Part shown: positions 1,536-6,629 of the stretch, one piece after another
Layout: each line of letters starts with the position of its first letter
How positions within the stretch are numbered: the first letter of the stretch is position 1
NCBI RefSeq assembly: GCF_000506985.1
Contig: NZ_KI650979.1
Coordinates: 806,001 to 870,000, forward strand
Source: Advenella kashmirensis W13003
Lineage (GTDB): Bacteria; Pseudomonadota; Gammaproteobacteria; Burkholderiales; Burkholderiaceae_B
Length of the DNA: 64,000 nucleotides
Direction of reading: 5' to 3'
The notes under the pieces: model-generated
The model's database searches: none
Told to the model about the DNA's origin: nothing
What the model saw: the letters and a program-made list of their open reading frames with translations, nothing else
Position numbers and translations under genes: made by a program

Positions 1536-3260
1536 TTAAGTGTCCGCCAGCAACTGCGGAATACGCAGGATTACGTCCCGATCCTTTTGTTTTTCCGGTT
1601 CAGGCAACATGTCCCACGCCACCATGGAGGGATGGCAACGACGCAAATCATCCCGCTGGACGCCATAGCGCCAGCCGGCAAGATAACGCTGCGCGACCCA
1701 GCGCGCATGTTCTACCTGCGCCAGCCGCTCCACTTCCTGCGCAGTGAACGAGATGGGACGCGGGTCTCCTGCTATCTGTGCATCGGCCCCTGTCAGCTTG
1801 CCGCACATGGCCAGCTTGTAGGGAATATGATCGGCCTGTGCCCGGTTGGCGTCTTTCGCCGGCTCATTCAAGGCATCCCAGGATTGCTTATAGGCTTCAC
1901 TTTCACTGAGTGCACCACCATCCGGGGCCAGTTGCTGCAGGTAATCCTCGTGAATGGCACGCGCGATGGTGTCCAGCCGTTCCTTCGTGATCAGTTCCAC
2001 CTGACACACCGACTCCAGACTGCCGAAAAACCGCAGCCGATTAAGCCGGTTCTGCTTTGTTCTGAGTAGCGCATTTAGGCCATCGTTATGGTAATTCAAT
2101 GCAAATACGCGAAAAGTAGAGACCGGCGTGGCGTGCAGCATTTCCAGCGACATTTTCAGATTGGCCGAATCCTGCTCGAATGCAGCAATCACAACCGGAA
2201 TAACGTGTTCTGGCGGGTCAATCACCAACTCATTCAGGATTTGGTCGTAAGCACCATCGAATTCGACATATTTAATGGAAGAGACCATACCGGCGCCAGG
2301 ATATTCAGCAACCAGCTGCCTGCCGGCCATGTCGGCCCCGGCGCCACACACAATGATCTCGGGCGAGGCCGGATTCGCCGTGTGCAGAACCTGCAATGCC
2401 TGCACCAGCAGCGATTTGGCGGTATCGCCTGTGCCAAATATCACCAGGCGGAAAACCGTCTCCTCATCGCGCAGCGCCTCGGCATATTCATAAGGGAAAC
2501 GGGCGAAGAACTGGCGGGCGATCATCTGATGATGATTGAAGAACCGCAAATCAATGCCATTTTGCTTTTCATCTTCAAAATAATCGGATTGCTGCAGCAT
2601 GGCGCTGACACGCGCGTTCGCGATATGCAGAAAGCACCGCACCTGATATTTTCCCGGATTCTTTTCTGTGATCTGATGCAAGGCACGCACCACATTGATG
2701 GTGGTCTGTTCATCATTCAAAAAGCAAATGAGATAGCGGGCAGTACGAATCCCCGCGTCCTGCAACACCATGCTTTGCGTACCATCGCCAAATAGCACCA
2801 GGTGTCCCTCACGGCGCAGCGCCCGGGCGTGCTTGTGCTCCGCATCCAGCTCAATGGCCACCCCTGTCATATGGTGCGATTGAGCCAGATCGTTCAGCAA
2901 GGCCTTGCCCTTTTGATTGATGCCAAGCACCAGCACCTGGTTACGCCTGAACAGCAGCCTGAACTGCGTGTAATAATCAACAAAAAGCTTTTGTGCAATT
3001 CTGACCATCCCGGCCAGCAGCGCCAGGGTCACGACAATCTTGACGAACGTGAGTTGCCACGGCAAATTCTCCGGCGGCAATGAAGATGAAACAGGATCGG
3101 ATCCCATCAGGGTGCGTAGCGTACGATACAGCTTTTCAGGCAGATAGAGCCATTCATTGATTTGTGGATAGTGCTTGCCCAGTCCCGTCCAGGTCAACAC
3201 AATCACTGCAAGCCCACCCACCAGAACCAGAATGCTTTTTGCGCGATGAGACAGTTTCAT
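1536..3260 (-). CDS. Membrane-anchored tandem Rossmann protein with C-terminal RyR domain
   Basis: 574 residues. Two hydrophobic segments (about 8-26 and 70-88) come first, then a TrkA-N/RCK-like Rossmann fold (VLVLGINQKGKALL, about 109-122) and a second Rossmann-like stretch (LVIFGTGDTAKSLL, about 270). The C-terminus (about 500-565) matches the bacterial RyR domain: VEHARW, then AGWRYG, then HPSMVAWDMLPE and EKQKDRD. RyR domains are known from ryanodine receptors and from prokaryotic proteins, where a nucleotide-ligand role has been proposed. The start ATG directly follows the TAA of the TIR gene (TAAATG), so the pair is almost certainly one operon. By inference this is the membrane effector or ligand sensor for the TIR product. 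It could instead be a K+ uptake regulator, but no channel gene is nearby. Confidence 0.85.
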   Translation of the reverse strand: MKLSHRAKSILVLVGGLAVIVLTWTGLGKHYPQINEWLYLPEKLYRTLRTLMGSDPVSSSLPPENLPWQLTFVKIVVTLALLAGMVRIAQKLFVDYYTQFRLLFRRNQVLVLGINQKGKALLNDLAQSHHMTGVAIELDAEHKHARALRREGHLVLFGDGTQSMVLQDAGIRTARYLICFLNDEQTTINVVRALHQITEKNPGKYQVRCFLHIANARVSAMLQQSDYFEDEKQNGIDLRFFNHHQMIARQFFARFPYEYAEALRDEETVFRLVIFGTGDTAKSLLVQALQVLHTANPASPEIIVCGAGADMAGRQLVAEYPGAGMVSSIKYVEFDGAYDQILNELVIDPPEHVIPVVIAAFEQDSANLKMSLEMLHATPVSTFRVFALNYHNDGLNALLRTKQNRLNRLRFFGSLESVCQVELITKERLDTIARAIHEDYLQQLAPDGGALSESEAYKQSWDALNEPAKDANRAQADHIPYKLAMCGKLTGADAQIAGDPRPISFTAQEVERLAQVEHARWVAQRYLAGWRYGVQRDDLRRCHPSMVAWDMLPEPEKQKDRDVILRIPQLLADT

Positions 3261-6200
3261 TTATGGATGCTCCTGCAAATTGTCGTGTACCTGCCGCAAC
3301 AGCGCCAGGGTTTTTTCCTTCACACTGAGGTCCTGAACTCTGTGAAGTTGCAGACGGACCATCTGTTCCAGGCGACGGGCAACGAATCCGGTCTCCCTGT
3401 TCTGACTGAAATAAACCGCCATTGCAGCGCGGGCCATCGGATGAAAACGCCAGTAACTGTCGAGCAATTGCAACTGTGACGCATCGCGTATGGGTATGTA
3501 TTTTTCAATGTAAGCAGTCAATGAAACAGTGGAACCGGGCACAGGCGGGCGGACATACGGGTCCTGGAAAAACCAGGAATCGGGGCGCTGCGCCGCGCGA
3601 GGAGCATCAACAACGGCTGCGGCATCATTGTCGTATTGCTTGCCGAAATAAATCTCGGTCTGATCGGCCAGATCGCGCGCAGGGGCAAGCAGCGCATCAG
3701 GCACCGCCCATACATTCAGAATGGACTCGCCGGCCCGCGCGTCAAGGGTCAAGATATCCTTGCCGTTGCGCAGTAACACCACGTCATTGATACGACTGAT
3801 CCCAAACGGCATGACAACCGGCATTCCTGTGGTCGTGTCATACATGGCAATGCCCTTATTGCCACCCACGCCCAAGGAGTCTGAAGCGAACAGAATCTGA
3901 CCGTCTGCAGAAAACTTCAAGTATCCATTAGTGGCATCGTTACTGATTTTCTGCCCGATCGGGCGCATTTTTTCCAGGCTCCACAAGCGGATATATTTGT
4001 TATCTTCAGCCATGGCAATCAGCTTGCCGTCTGGGCTGAGTTCGGCCTTGGGTGAGTCACCTGCAGTGGGAAGCGTCAGGCGGCTGACAAAATCCGTCAG
4101 ATCATATAACTGTGCATTGTCATTGAAAAACGCCAGCAGATATTTATTATCGGGTGTGAAATAGGCCCCCTTGATCCGCGTGCTCTCCTGATGCAAGACC
4201 TTGCCCGTGGCGACGTCAACAACGCGCCAGTTGCTCTCTTCGTCCAGAGCGAGGATTGTCGACAAATCCGCCGACAACTTATATTTTTCGCCCTGCTTGA
4301 GGGTAAACGTGCGCGCAAGTTCACCGGACGCGATATCCCAAATGCCCAGTTTTTTTTCATCGAGTCTGGACGAAACCTGCCTGCCATCGCGACTGAACGA
4401 GATCATGCCTTTGACAGACACCGGCTTGCCGATTGGCTTTCCGGTACCGGCACGATAGAACAGCAGCTGGCTTCGATCGTTTTCCGGTGTTGAAATCACA
4501 TAGATGAAATCATGTTCTTCATCTACGCCGAAGCGATCAATGGTGAACGGAGTTTCGATGTACTTTTTGGCGCCATCTTTTGCTTCCAGGGAAAGATACT
4601 CCAGCGCGCGACCATTCTTTTTAAGTATCAGCACACCCTTGCTATCGGGCATGGCACGGAACGATACCAGTTTTTCGCCCAGGCTATGCTGCGACCGAAG
4701 CAATGCCGGCGCCAGGTCCGTCACCAGGTAAAACGACCCCTCCTGAAGCTCAACCCGTTGCGTCATATCAGGAGACACGCTCGACGAATCATCATATAAA
4801 AGTCGAACAAGGTTGAGCGACGTTTCGCCAGCAGACACGGCCTGGTCGGTATTGATATCATGTACCGTATAGTTGCCCTGCCACAGCGTGGTATAGGTTT
4901 TCCCATCATTGAAATAAACATCTTCGGGCACCAGCTGACCCGGCACTCTGGCCACCTCGCGATTATTTTTCCGCAAATCAATGTGATACATGCCATTGAC
5001 CGCCCGGACAAACACGTGCTGCGCGTCCGGGCTGAATTTGAGCCTCATGATTCTGGCCGGCACCTGATAGTCGCGTGCCTCAAGCAGTTGACCGTCGGCG
5101 CTCACGGGATAGATGCGAATACGATTGTCATTATCCTCATTTTCATGAAAAACAATGAGCCGCCCTTGCGGCTCAATCTCAATCTGGTCGGTCGCGGCGC
5201 TCGAACGGCGACGGGTGGGCACCTGATCAACGGCAAGCTGATGCGTGCGCATGTTAAATAGTTGTGATTTGATATATTCCAGCTTGCCGTCAACAACGTG
5301 CCACCCCTGTATGACAAGCCAGCGACCGGTTGCATCCGGTACCAGGGAAGCAATACGCATATCGGCAGGCGCCTCATAAACAATACTGATGGGCTTGCCT
5401 TCCTGCCATGTCGCTATTTTGTTATCGGCAGTCGTGAAGTACAGAATACCTCTGGCATCAAACAGCATTTTTGTAAACGAATTGGCATTGGCATCGTTCA
5501 AGGTCGTGTGCAATGTCTGTTTGTACGCATCCCATATCTGTATGCCGCGTTGCGCATTGGTGGTGGCATTGATTGCAGCAAGCCAGTGACCATCGGGGCT
5601 GAACACGGGCGTCGAGTCCAGTCTTGGCATCAGCGTCATGCCGTTCTGACGCATCAGCATTGACTGCACATACAACGCGGTTCGTTCATTGCCATAGCGT
5701 GTCGCGGCAGCCATGTAGGCCGCGCCCTCGGCCACTTCTTTCTGGTCAATTTTATTCAGTCCGGAAAGAAACAGGGAACGCGAGAGCATGGATTGGGCAG
5801 AGTTTCTTTCAGTCCAGGCGTATACGCCCATGCCCATCGCCATGACCGCCAGCACACCAATGACGATTGCAATACGCTTGATAATCTTCGTGCGCTGCCT
5901 GGCTTTGACCAATTGATAGGCCTGATCGCGCTGGGTCAGGTCGCCAAGGGGCACATCCAGCACACCGGCAATGACCTTGAGGCGGGCCAGATCAAGACGA
6001 TCCCTGTAGGCCTGTACCCTGCGCTCCACCTCCCTGCGTGACAACTTGCGATCCTGCTGCAACTGCCGCCGATACGCCTCCGGCGTGGTGAAACCCTGCT
6101 CCTGCGTCCCTGGAATGCGGGCGTCAGCGGCGATGGGCTCTTCGCTTACATTGGTGTCAATCGCGCCGGTCTCATCTACCCTGAAACGCAATACCTCCGG

Positions 6201-6629
6201 AAAACATTGCTGTTCGGTAGACTCTTTGCCATATTCAGGCTCCCCGGCAAGAATCAGGGCAATCATGCGATCACTTTTGCCTGTCTGCTTGAAATGGCGC
6301 AGCTCCTGGCTTACATATACTGAGCGGGCCGATTGCGGCGAACTCAGATAAATCAGACAGGCCGAGGCATCCAGCGCCGTGGTCAGCGCCGAGGACAGGT
6401 TGGAACTGGCCGACAGCTCCTTTTCATCCTGAAAGACAGGATAGATTTGCGCGGGAATAGGCCTGCCGGCACGATTGGACTTGCCGACCAGGTCAGCCGG
6501 CACCTCGTAGGTTTCCAGCTCATGATGCAGCCAGTCGGCCCATTTACGCCCTTCTTCCCGGTTATCAGCGTGGCTGTAACTGATGAATGCCGCATAGGTC
6601 AGCCGACTCTCTGCCGTTTCTTCGTTCAT
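3261..6629 (-). CDS. TIR-transmembrane-WD40 repeat protein
   Basis: 1122 residues. The N-terminal TIR domain (about 10-135) starts AAFISYSHAD and carries the PVFQDEKEL loop. It also has the helix SARSVYVSQELRHFK, whose E109 sits at the catalytic glutamate position of NAD-cleaving TIR domains. A basic linker leads to one transmembrane helix (about 250-271). A long beta-propeller follows (about 300-970) with repeats such as FSPDGHWLA, LSPDGKLIAMA and blade ends like IRLWSLE and LGIWDIA. A helical tail ends the protein. TIR domains in bacterial immunity hydrolyse or cyclise NAD. The propeller is probably a sensor or scaffold, and the topology suggests the TIR is cytosolic with the propeller across the membrane. 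The gene is coupled to the RyR gene. NADase activity is inference. Confidence 0.88.
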   Translation of the reverse strand: MNEETAESRLTYAAFISYSHADNREEGRKWADWLHHELETYEVPADLVGKSNRAGRPIPAQIYPVFQDEKELSASSNLSSALTTALDASACLIYLSSPQSARSVYVSQELRHFKQTGKSDRMIALILAGEPEYGKESTEQQCFPEVLRFRVDETGAIDTNVSEEPIAADARIPGTQEQGFTTPEAYRRQLQQDRKLSRREVERRVQAYRDRLDLARLKVIAGVLDVPLGDLTQRDQAYQLVKARQRTKIIKRIAIVIGVLAVMAMGMGVYAWTERNSAQSMLSRSLFLSGLNKIDQKEVAEGAAYMAAATRYGNERTALYVQSMLMRQNGMTLMPRLDSTPVFSPDGHWLAAINATTNAQRGIQIWDAYKQTLHTTLNDANANSFTKMLFDARGILYFTTADNKIATWQEGKPISIVYEAPADMRIASLVPDATGRWLVIQGWHVVDGKLEYIKSQLFNMRTHQLAVDQVPTRRRSSAATDQIEIEPQGRLIVFHENEDNDNRIRIYPVSADGQLLEARDYQVPARIMRLKFSPDAQHVFVRAVNGMYHIDLRKNNREVARVPGQLVPEDVYFNDGKTYTTLWQGNYTVHDINTDQAVSAGETSLNLVRLLYDDSSSVSPDMTQRVELQEGSFYLVTDLAPALLRSQHSLGEKLVSFRAMPDSKGVLILKKNGRALEYLSLEAKDGAKKYIETPFTIDRFGVDEEHDFIYVISTPENDRSQLLFYRAGTGKPIGKPVSVKGMISFSRDGRQVSSRLDEKKLGIWDIASGELARTFTLKQGEKYKLSADLSTILALDEESNWRVVDVATGKVLHQESTRIKGAYFTPDNKYLLAFFNDNAQLYDLTDFVSRLTLPTAGDSPKAELSPDGKLIAMAEDNKYIRLWSLEKMRPIGQKISNDATNGYLKFSADGQILFASDSLGVGGNKGIAMYDTTTGMPVVMPFGISRINDVVLLRNGKDILTLDARAGESILNVWAVPDALLAPARDLADQTEIYFGKQYDNDAAAVVDAPRAAQRPDSWFFQDPYVRPPVPGSTVSLTAYIEKYIPIRDASQLQLLDSYWRFHPMARAAMAVYFSQNRETGFVARRLEQMVRLQLHRVQDLSVKEKTLALLRQVHDNLQEHP

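Follow-up and report, generated by a model that had tools for sequence, protein, structure and literature searches.

We describe a pair of abutting genes in Advenella kashmirensis W13003 that may form a two-gene signalling module of the inner membrane. The pair lies in a stretch of 64,000 nucleotides (assembly GCF_000506985.1, contig NZ_KI650979.1, positions 806,001 to 870,000; hereafter the window) of a 4.85-Mb genome, and codes for a TIR protein with one membrane helix and a double beta-propeller, followed by a membrane protein with two RCK domains and a C-terminal RyR domain. In the reading that we slightly favour, a trigger at the propeller would lead the TIR domain to make a messenger, the messenger would bind the RyR domain, and binding would change the RCK ring and the pore. 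A bolder version, which we offer tentatively and with more doubt than belief, is that of a bacterial Toll-like receptor, in which a periplasmic double propeller would drive a cytosolic TIR domain whose cyclic ADP-ribose (cADPR) messenger opens the adjacent RyR-domain ion channel, making the pair a complete prokaryotic TIR-cADPR-RyR channel pathway. The gene pairing, the domain content and the pattern of conservation were observed directly, and every biochemical step is reasoned from them. The features of the pair are as follows.

3261..6629, minus strand: upstream gene, TIR-transmembrane-double propeller, 1122 amino acids (open reading frame list, Pfam; conserved in Advenella and other genera)
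6195..6602, minus strand: TIR domain, residues 10-145 (TIR_2 above cut-off; E109 codon at 6303-6305)
5811..5882, minus strand: single membrane helix, residues 250-273 (strongest hydrophobic stretch starts at residue 253; lysine and arginine richer on the TIR side)
3690..5639, minus strand: double beta-propeller, residues 331-980, predicted periplasmic (AlphaFold, Foldseek, cysteine counts)
3258..3263, minus strand: junction TAAATG, stop of the TIR gene and start of the RyR gene (read from the sequence)
1536..3260, minus strand: downstream gene, transmembrane-RCK-RCK-RyR, 574 amino acids (open reading frame list, Pfam; AlphaFold mean predicted local distance difference test score, pLDDT, 84.3)
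2982..3236, minus strand: first transmembrane helix (TM1), short helix, loop and second transmembrane helix (TM2), residues 9-93 (AlphaFold, hydrophobicity scan, alignment; loop with invariant G53, D55 and P56)
2490..2945, minus strand: first RCK/TrkA_N Rossmann domain, residues 106-257 (Pfam and VIA-align)
1977..2465, minus strand: second RCK-type Rossmann domain, residues 266-428 (structure only, no Pfam match)
1548..1745, minus strand: RyR (Repeat12-type) domain, residues 506-571 (Pfam, PDB alignment, conservation; ligand-type H518, W521, R525, R536, H543 and D560)

Both open reading frames are found where a first-pass annotation, made from the letters alone, had placed them, and their abutment can be read directly from the minus-strand junction sequence ...ccaTAAATGaaa...; promoter and terminator scans returned nothing usable. 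The pairing is not a matter of chance, because the genes adjoin in every RyR-bearing Advenella genome and in other genera. Within the family, the RyR model PF02026 matched 6 of 268 genomes, all from one genus of 43, Advenella (six of its ten listed genomes), and in all six the RyR frame directly follows the propeller gene. The Advenella homologues are 77-79% identical to the window protein for the RyR member and 70-71% for the TIR-propeller member. A search of 250 genomes of the order with the whole RyR protein gave no full-length match outside the genus: 112 genomes matched, most of them only through the TrkA_N domain of other proteins (these were not counted), and RyR-only matches occurred in three (L002-L004; larger stretches L042-L044). 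Neither the 250- nor the 268-genome sample showed Diaphorobacter or Brachymonas, both of which a wider scan later found.

That wider scan, pattern-based and built on the RyR-domain alignment, covered one genome per species in 84,980 species and made part of the family visible (20 loci). Using our own profiles and Pfam, a TIR-transmembrane-propeller gene was detected directly upstream of the RyR gene in Sphingobacterium endophyticum (L101), Diaphorobacter caeni (L102) and a metagenome-assembled genome (MAG) of the Cardiobacteriaceae (L103). The same arrangement is present in Diaphorobacter aerolatus (L111), where the RyR gene lies in two frames, and the contig of a Brachymonas MAG (L100) begins within the propeller gene. 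PF02026 occurs in 11 of 93 Sphingobacterium species, with TIR-propeller sequence upstream in all 11 and both frames intact in nine; in L163 the open frame does not include the initial part of the TIR domain, and in L155 (L155:3123-8152) both genes are broken into several frames, which suggests decay as a unit. Contamination as the origin of the Sphingobacterium copy was considered and rejected, since the 11 species with a PF02026 match share flanks. In the family of D. caeni, PF02026 matched 4 of 299 genomes, three above the cut-off, namely the two Diaphorobacter, a genome with an RCK-RyR protein without TIR (L164) and one with a short RyR frame (L165).

The main clade thus defined comprises 21 loci (six Advenella, one Brachymonas, two Diaphorobacter, one Cardiobacteriaceae and 11 Sphingobacterium). 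A propeller gene stands directly upstream in 21/21, and the TIR domain was detected in 19; in the other two it would lie beyond the contig end. Nine main-clade RyR proteins form one group in a 25-sequence tree (support 100/99); they span all main-clade groups but D. aerolatus, and the rest were assigned by similarity and neighbours. In the 16 intact main-clade pairs the genes are separated by -4 to +27 bp. When flanks were compared across six groups, the pair alone recurred throughout. Beyond it, A. incenata and D. caeni share a transporter-type gene of 322/332 amino acids (36% identity) upstream, members of one ABC-type ATPase family occur here and there at three loci, and the other matches are antisense frames. 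The first-pass annotation had named the lack of a conserved neighbourhood as a result that would undo it; the pair recurs across phyla.

Conservation is unevenly spread over the two proteins. Against four other main-clade proteins, the TIR domain is 65-70% identical and the propeller 21-24%, and against four other RyR proteins identity amounts to 55-58% in the RyR domain, 48-53% in the stretch that precedes it, 37-40% in the membrane part and 29-36% in the RCK region. The domains of maker type and reader type stay constant and the presumed sensor changes fast, a pattern that in our reading reflects a small-molecule link that is fixed and a trigger that varies.

The RyR domain itself was detected by Pfam at residues 510-564 (PF02026, 1.2e-10; 41.9 bits against a cut-off of 27.4) and aligns with the animal channels in the PDB (E 1e-19 for RyR2, 2e-18 for RyR1, 2e-19 for RyR3). 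A May 2026 preprint (PMC13232231) describes phage RyDEP as a RyR-domain glycosidase of 2'cADPR and 3'cADPR, with H75, W78, H100 and D117 at the ligand and H75 and D117 as the catalytic pair; six of eight tested phage homologues bind these signals, and those besides RyDEP do not cleave them despite high sequence conservation with it. Set against the residues named there, H518, W521, H543 and D560 of the window protein match all four with identical spacing (3/25/17). Each of the four is identical in 17/17 aligned pairs, the D560 of Fusobacterium by MAFFT alignment only (the hhalign alignment ends before that column). In the wider RCK-RyR family (20 rows, seven from the main clade), H518 and W521 occur in 20/20, H543 in 15/20 and D560 in 16/20. 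The earlier view of the RyR domain as a nucleotide-ligand module has thus gained substance, in so far as the preprint reports phage RyR domains that bind or cleave 2'cADPR and 3'cADPR (PMC13232231), and the four ligand residues are present here.

The animal channels point to the same pocket. In RyR3, W880 stacks on the adenine, and the phosphate is contacted by K884 and R895 (PMC12627627); window residues W521, R525 and R536 fall on these positions by the match ranges (16-65 to 870-919), a correspondence read from the ranges, with residue identities taken from RyR2 alignments. The alignments with the first repeat of RyR2 have Trp, Lys and Arg at W521, R525 and R536, His at H518 and H543, and Asn at D560. 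According to the preprint, animal RyRs have kept the ligand residues (PMC13232231); at D560 our RyR2 alignment has the Asn just mentioned.

For the remainder of this protein, described in the first-pass annotation as two membrane helices and two Rossmann regions, the helices and the RyR domain stand, and the Rossmann regions acquire a more specific identity. The hydrophobicity scan gave two strong segments, from residues 10 and 70, and Pfam placed TrkA_N at residues 109-199 (2.9e-14, above the curated cut-off). The nearest solved structures to the Rossmann domains of the AlphaFold model are CASTOR, DMI1, GsuK and TrkA (Foldseek, VIA-align), including GsuK-NAD, GsuK-ADP and TrkA-ATP-analogue entries. 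As modelled, both Rossmann regions are a tandem-RCK gating ring, and the predicted topology is channel-like. In the 16 main-clade pairs the loop between TM1 and TM2 carries MG-x-DP or FG-x-DP.

In the upstream protein, TIR_2 matched residues 15-128 (1.8e-9, above the curated cut-off); the ThsB_TIR model scored 18.9 bits, under its cut-off of 21.2, and a PDB search with the TIR part gave no match. The glutamate E109 singled out by the first-pass annotation is identical in 17/17 aligned paired TIR proteins, at what we take, from the TIR family pattern, to be the catalytic position. The AlphaFold model of this protein (mean pLDDT 75.8) has propeller-typical strands at about residues 331-975, and its best PDB matches in Foldseek are tandem-propeller proteins and Apaf-1. 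Pfam propeller and WD40 models fall mostly on residues 742-978 and weakly on 334-408, all under their own cut-offs. We make no claim on the geometry of the TIR domain or of residues 237-297 because AlphaFold confidence is moderate to low there (blocks of about 52-80 in the TIR part, most of residues 237-297 below 50). A second TIR_2 match occurs elsewhere in the same genome, outside the window, in a 992-amino-acid open frame (G000:C1:341673-342077).

Where the propeller sits decides what kind of protein this is. The hydrophobicity scan found one strong segment, from residue 253, and in 17 proteins the 25 residues flanking the membrane helix hold five to seven Lys or Arg on the TIR side versus one to four beyond it. 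Cys is rare from residue 291 onward, with three in 14,028 residues over the 17 homologues together; the partner, counted from residue 106, has 73 in 7,926. Before the helix, where the TIR domain lies, Cys makes up 0.47%. Since a near-absence of Cys beyond the membrane helix is a usual mark of an exported domain, the propeller is probably in the periplasm, outside the cytoplasm, as judged from composition, and the TIR protein would therefore be a transmembrane receptor and not a cytosolic sensor. The TIR domain, the single helix and the propeller of the first-pass annotation are retained, with the propeller corrected to a double one, probably periplasmic.

Taken together, these features suggest the following course of events. 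The double propeller, probably periplasmic, would sense an envelope or extracellular event. Once triggered, the cytosolic TIR domain would turn NAD+ into a messenger of ADP-ribose type. Its family and the conserved glutamate make 2'cADPR or 3'cADPR the most plausible product, and this messenger would bind the C-terminal RyR domain of the partner, as the conserved pocket residues and the ligand of the phage RyR domains suggest. Binding could then shift the tandem-RCK ring and with it a two-helix membrane pore or an assembly resembling one, so that ion flow or the integrity of the membrane would change, a step suggested by the fold. The likely use may be in stress or phage defence, which is the weakest step. 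The first-pass annotation had proposed a propeller sensor, a TIR producer and a membrane RyR effector; pairing across phyla, the TIR glutamate and the RyR ligand residues support this outline in part; it is revised in that the propeller appears to lie outside the cytoplasm and the partner resembles an RCK channel.

Related pairs exist outside the main clade. In Fusobacterium vincentii (L051, on a record of 2.1 Mb that is listed among plasmids), found from the TIR side, a TIR-transmembrane-propeller gene is followed after 3 bp by an RCK-RyR relative (hhalign 98.2%, E 3.8e-14, 519 columns) whose RyR and TrkA_N domains Pfam misses. In Runella (L116), a TIR-Sel1 gene precedes an RCK-RyR relative (profile; hhalign 99.9%; Pfam gives only TrkA_N below the cut-off). 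The Fusobacterium and Runella RyR proteins fall outside the main clade of the 25-sequence tree, on long branches with weak support (74/39). On the IMG/VR contig L176, a TIR gene and an RCK-RyR gene are 33 bp apart, and the latter has the same H/W/H/D spacing, with RyR above and TrkA_N under the Pfam cut-off. Of six neighbours two match phage families (DNA methyltransferase and esterase) and four match none; because few neighbours match phage families, the viral nature of L176 rests on the classification of the collection. A Verrucomicrobia locus (L105:284-7279) has RCK-RyR in two overlapping frames, a TIR-NB-ARC-TPR gene and then an LSDAT/SLOG-RyR gene, a cassette that unites three ADP-ribose-linked domain types. 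In Planctomycetota (L104) and Magnetococcales (L110) a TIR gene lies near RCK-RyR, not co-directionally.

To put these into proportion, 4 of 18 outer RCK-RyR loci (L104, L105, L110, L116) have a TIR match, versus 0.008 expected per 20 kb (binomial P about 1e-5), a rough enrichment since the background (60 genomes totalling 224.5 Mb, with 90 TIR_2 matches) is Pseudomonadota-only, own profiles are compared with Pfam profiles, and stretch lengths are unequal. The 18 leave out loci whose RyR domain is not on an RCK protein (L042, L043, L044, L047, L060, L065, L165), L051 and L176 (found from the TIR side or after the count), and the duplicates L061 (same as L110) and L066 (same as L106). Conversely, 11 loci with a TIR relative were examined from the TIR side, six from the TIR search and 5 of 48 plasmid records, picked by TIR match or annotation; L052 among them matched the general TIR profile only. 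Since the two families have other neighbours outside the main clade, their genes are not mutually obligate; in every main-clade locus sampled they are joined.

Some of these other neighbours deserve mention. Two genomes of the same order as Advenella have small RyR-only genes (102-103 amino acids; L042:4594-8237, L043:4591-7943) next to TIR genes that also match TPR and, weakly, ATPase models. The neighbours converge in one genome and diverge in the other, and the small genes are candidates for an antidote or sponge. At L127 (L127:6347-10565), a TIR relative lies beside a SLOG-like membrane gene in place of the RyR protein, possibly a receptor swap. A set of RCK-RyR, patatin-like and SLOG-like membrane genes is repeated at L063:8251-13627, L064:3327-8742 and L106:6395-11822, where both "-like" labels are our reading of the sequences and Pfam is blank for two of the SLOG-like genes. 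RyR also occurs at the C-terminus of RelA/SpoT-domain proteins (L107:2618-10399, L060:7541-10063); at L107, where the neighbours of RCK-RyR are RelA/SpoT-RyR and propeller genes (Pfam), three RyR genes lie close together by a propeller gene. RCK-RyR has a caspase neighbour at L110 (Pfam), and on the Arcobacter plasmid L046 a DUF4062 gene lies beside a split RCK and RyR pair (record annotation). Plasmid and phage searches with the RyR protein gave partial, distant matches only.

The genomic surroundings of the main-clade pairs vary. In the window, a glyoxalase-like gene lies upstream of the pair and an ABC ATPase and a UPF0014 protein lie downstream (Pfam), and neighbours are uniform, within reach, on the five complete Advenella stretches (maeB, a glyoxalase-like match in four, ABC, UPF0014); the sixth contig (G298) begins within the TIR-propeller gene. 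In the four Advenella genomes without the pair (G291, G292, G295, G299) no insertion or loss point is readable, because the ABC/UPF0014 genes stand in a different context there. In D. caeni, a type II CRISPR-Cas system (L102:13615-20325; Cas9 and Cas1 by PADLOC, repeat array seen in translations) lies about 3 kb from the pair, and D. aerolatus (L111) has similar CRISPR-Cas genes, by sequence.

A defence role is likely but not established. Pointing towards it are the TIR, SLOG, NB-ARC and caspase domains found near RCK-RyR genes, the patchy presence, the CRISPR-Cas system of D. caeni with the similar genes of D. aerolatus, and the contig classed as viral. Pointing away from it are the lack of a PADLOC model and the ordinary-looking flanks in Advenella and Sphingobacterium, the two genera with most copies. 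Several observations weigh against our reading, for defence and more generally. PADLOC-DB 2.0.0 has no model for the pair and gave no match for the window RyR protein; the window TIR scored 14.7 bits, to SAVED_TIR only, the TIR proteins of L102 and L051 reached 18-19 bits with that model, and the RyR proteins of L102, L051, L116 and L105 matched none. In Advenella and in Sphingobacterium the locus keeps one chromosomal position, among genes without evident defence character. None of the 17 paired proteins, aligned to the window columns, has a TVGYG or GYG filter between TM1 and TM2, and because this canonical K+ filter is lacking, channel function is not certain; the scan of the L176 RCK-RyR protein found no membrane segment over the threshold. 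In 14 of the 18 outer RCK-RyR loci the fetched stretch has no TIR match, which implies that the ligand of RCK-RyR does not come from TIR in every case, and 10 of the 11 loci examined from the TIR side lack RyR, L051 being the one that has it. The mirror-tree correlation of 0.92-0.97 is confounded by common descent. Finally, low Cys is not proof of export: among five window proteins used as controls, one of 318 amino acids, taken as cytosolic, has none and one of 328 has a single Cys, so the weight of the argument lies in the 17 proteins jointly.

Three other explanations have to be considered. The RyR protein might be a brake that cleaves or sequesters the TIR messenger at the membrane and so prevents self-harm, the effector being an unlinked protein. 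We regard this as fairly unlikely, despite what it has in its favour: the preprint reports glycosidase activity for RyDEP and binding of the signal by six of the eight phage homologues tested (PMC13232231), the RyDEP dyad H75/D117 is present here as H518/D560, the D560 column is Asn in the first repeat of RyR2, so that the full dyad is not simply the state of the animal channel, and small RyR-only genes stand beside TIR genes in the same order (L042, L043). A sponge or hydrolase, however, needs neither the membrane part nor the tandem-RCK ring, yet both are conserved, and other phage homologues are described as enzymatically inactive despite high conservation (PMC13232231).

Alternatively, the order of events could be reversed, with RCK-RyR sensing an NAD(H), nucleotide or ion state at the membrane and TIR acting as an NAD-consuming killer. 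This would fit loci elsewhere in which RCK-RyR is constant and the neighbouring enzyme varies (TIR, caspase, patatin-like), as well as the common binding of NAD(H), ADP or ATP by RCK domains, illustrated by the GsuK-NAD, GsuK-ADP and TrkA-ATP-analogue structures that were matched. We nevertheless hold it unlikely, because the fast-diverging, sensor-like and apparently extracytoplasmic propeller sits on the TIR protein, which makes that protein look like the input side. An improbable case is that of a housekeeping unit for ion homeostasis or envelope stress, an RCK channel under a TIR-propeller scaffold without nucleotide signalling. Both in Sphingobacterium and in Advenella (between maeB with a glyoxalase-like gene and ABC/UPF0014) the place of the pair is fixed, which agrees with such a role, and so does the TrkA_N/RCK similarity to K+ uptake and efflux systems, but presence is patchy (6/10 Advenella genomes, 11/93 Sphingobacterium species), the RyR pocket and the TIR glutamate are retained, the pair lies near Cas9 in Diaphorobacter caeni and a related pair is on a contig classed as viral.

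The messenger pathway that we favour shares parts with several known systems. As in Thoeris, a TIR gene adjoins an effector-like gene and the TIR domain is expected to make an ADP-ribose-type messenger. ThsA-type effectors of Thoeris are SIR2/SLOG, Macro-transmembrane or similar proteins, whereas Pfam detected RyR and TrkA_N only in the partner, without SIR2, SLOG or Macro; the TIR protein here is a receptor with a membrane helix and a double propeller; and no ThsA-type effector is adjacent, the flanks being ABC, UPF0014 and glyoxalase-like genes (Pfam). Animal Toll-like receptors have a sensor outside, one membrane helix and TIR in the cytosol, with leucine-rich repeats. The same topology is predicted here from the basic residues on the TIR side and the scarcity of Cys beyond the membrane helix, but with a propeller in place of the leucine-rich repeats and a reversed domain order, and we claim homology for TIR alone. 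GsuK, MthK and CASTOR/DMI1, the best structural matches to the model, likewise have two membrane helices and a short intervening helix followed by RCK domains; the window protein differs in having no TVGYG filter and an extra C-terminal RyR domain, and its channel activity is putative. Animal RyR Repeat12 is a homologous domain with the adenine-side Trp and the basic residues, whereas the window protein has one RyR unit per chain, an unrelated membrane part, and Asp in the D560 column where RyR2 has Asn. With RyDEP it shares the RyR/R12 domain and the H-x2-W, H and D residues at the same spacing; RyDEP is described as a phage-encoded homodimer (PMC13232231), whereas the window domain is bacterial, forms part of a membrane protein with a gating ring and has a TIR partner.

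No description of a TIR-RyR pair came up in the open-access literature searched, and a mention in the earlier Burroughs surveys is possible. RyR domains in nucleotide-linked conflict systems were reportedly first raised by Burroughs et al. in 2015 and by Burroughs and Aravind in 2020. For bacterial or viral RyR function, the literature search brought up the RyDEP preprint (PMC13232231), and a term search in two papers on related conflict systems gave no mention of RyR (PMC9503650, PMC7159879). The general idea of RyR in conflict systems is therefore not new; the novelty appears to lie in this particular pair and how widely it occurs, in the identification of the gating ring, in the topology prediction and in the match of the pocket. 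If our reading is right, and within the open-access literature searched, this would be the first case of a TIR pathway whose receptor is a RyR-domain protein of the host, and also the first channel-like receptor with a RyR domain, outside animals, for which a messenger maker is identified next to it. The pair would also show a transmembrane TIR receptor in bacteria and help to explain RyR-domain sponges and enzymes of phages, and its two genes would be a convenient system for the old question of whether the R12 region of the ryanodine receptor is a direct target of cADPR. The full TIR-cADPR-RyR reading, if true, would link the gating of animal RyRs by cADPR and the TIR immunity of plants and animals to a bacterial two-gene unit.

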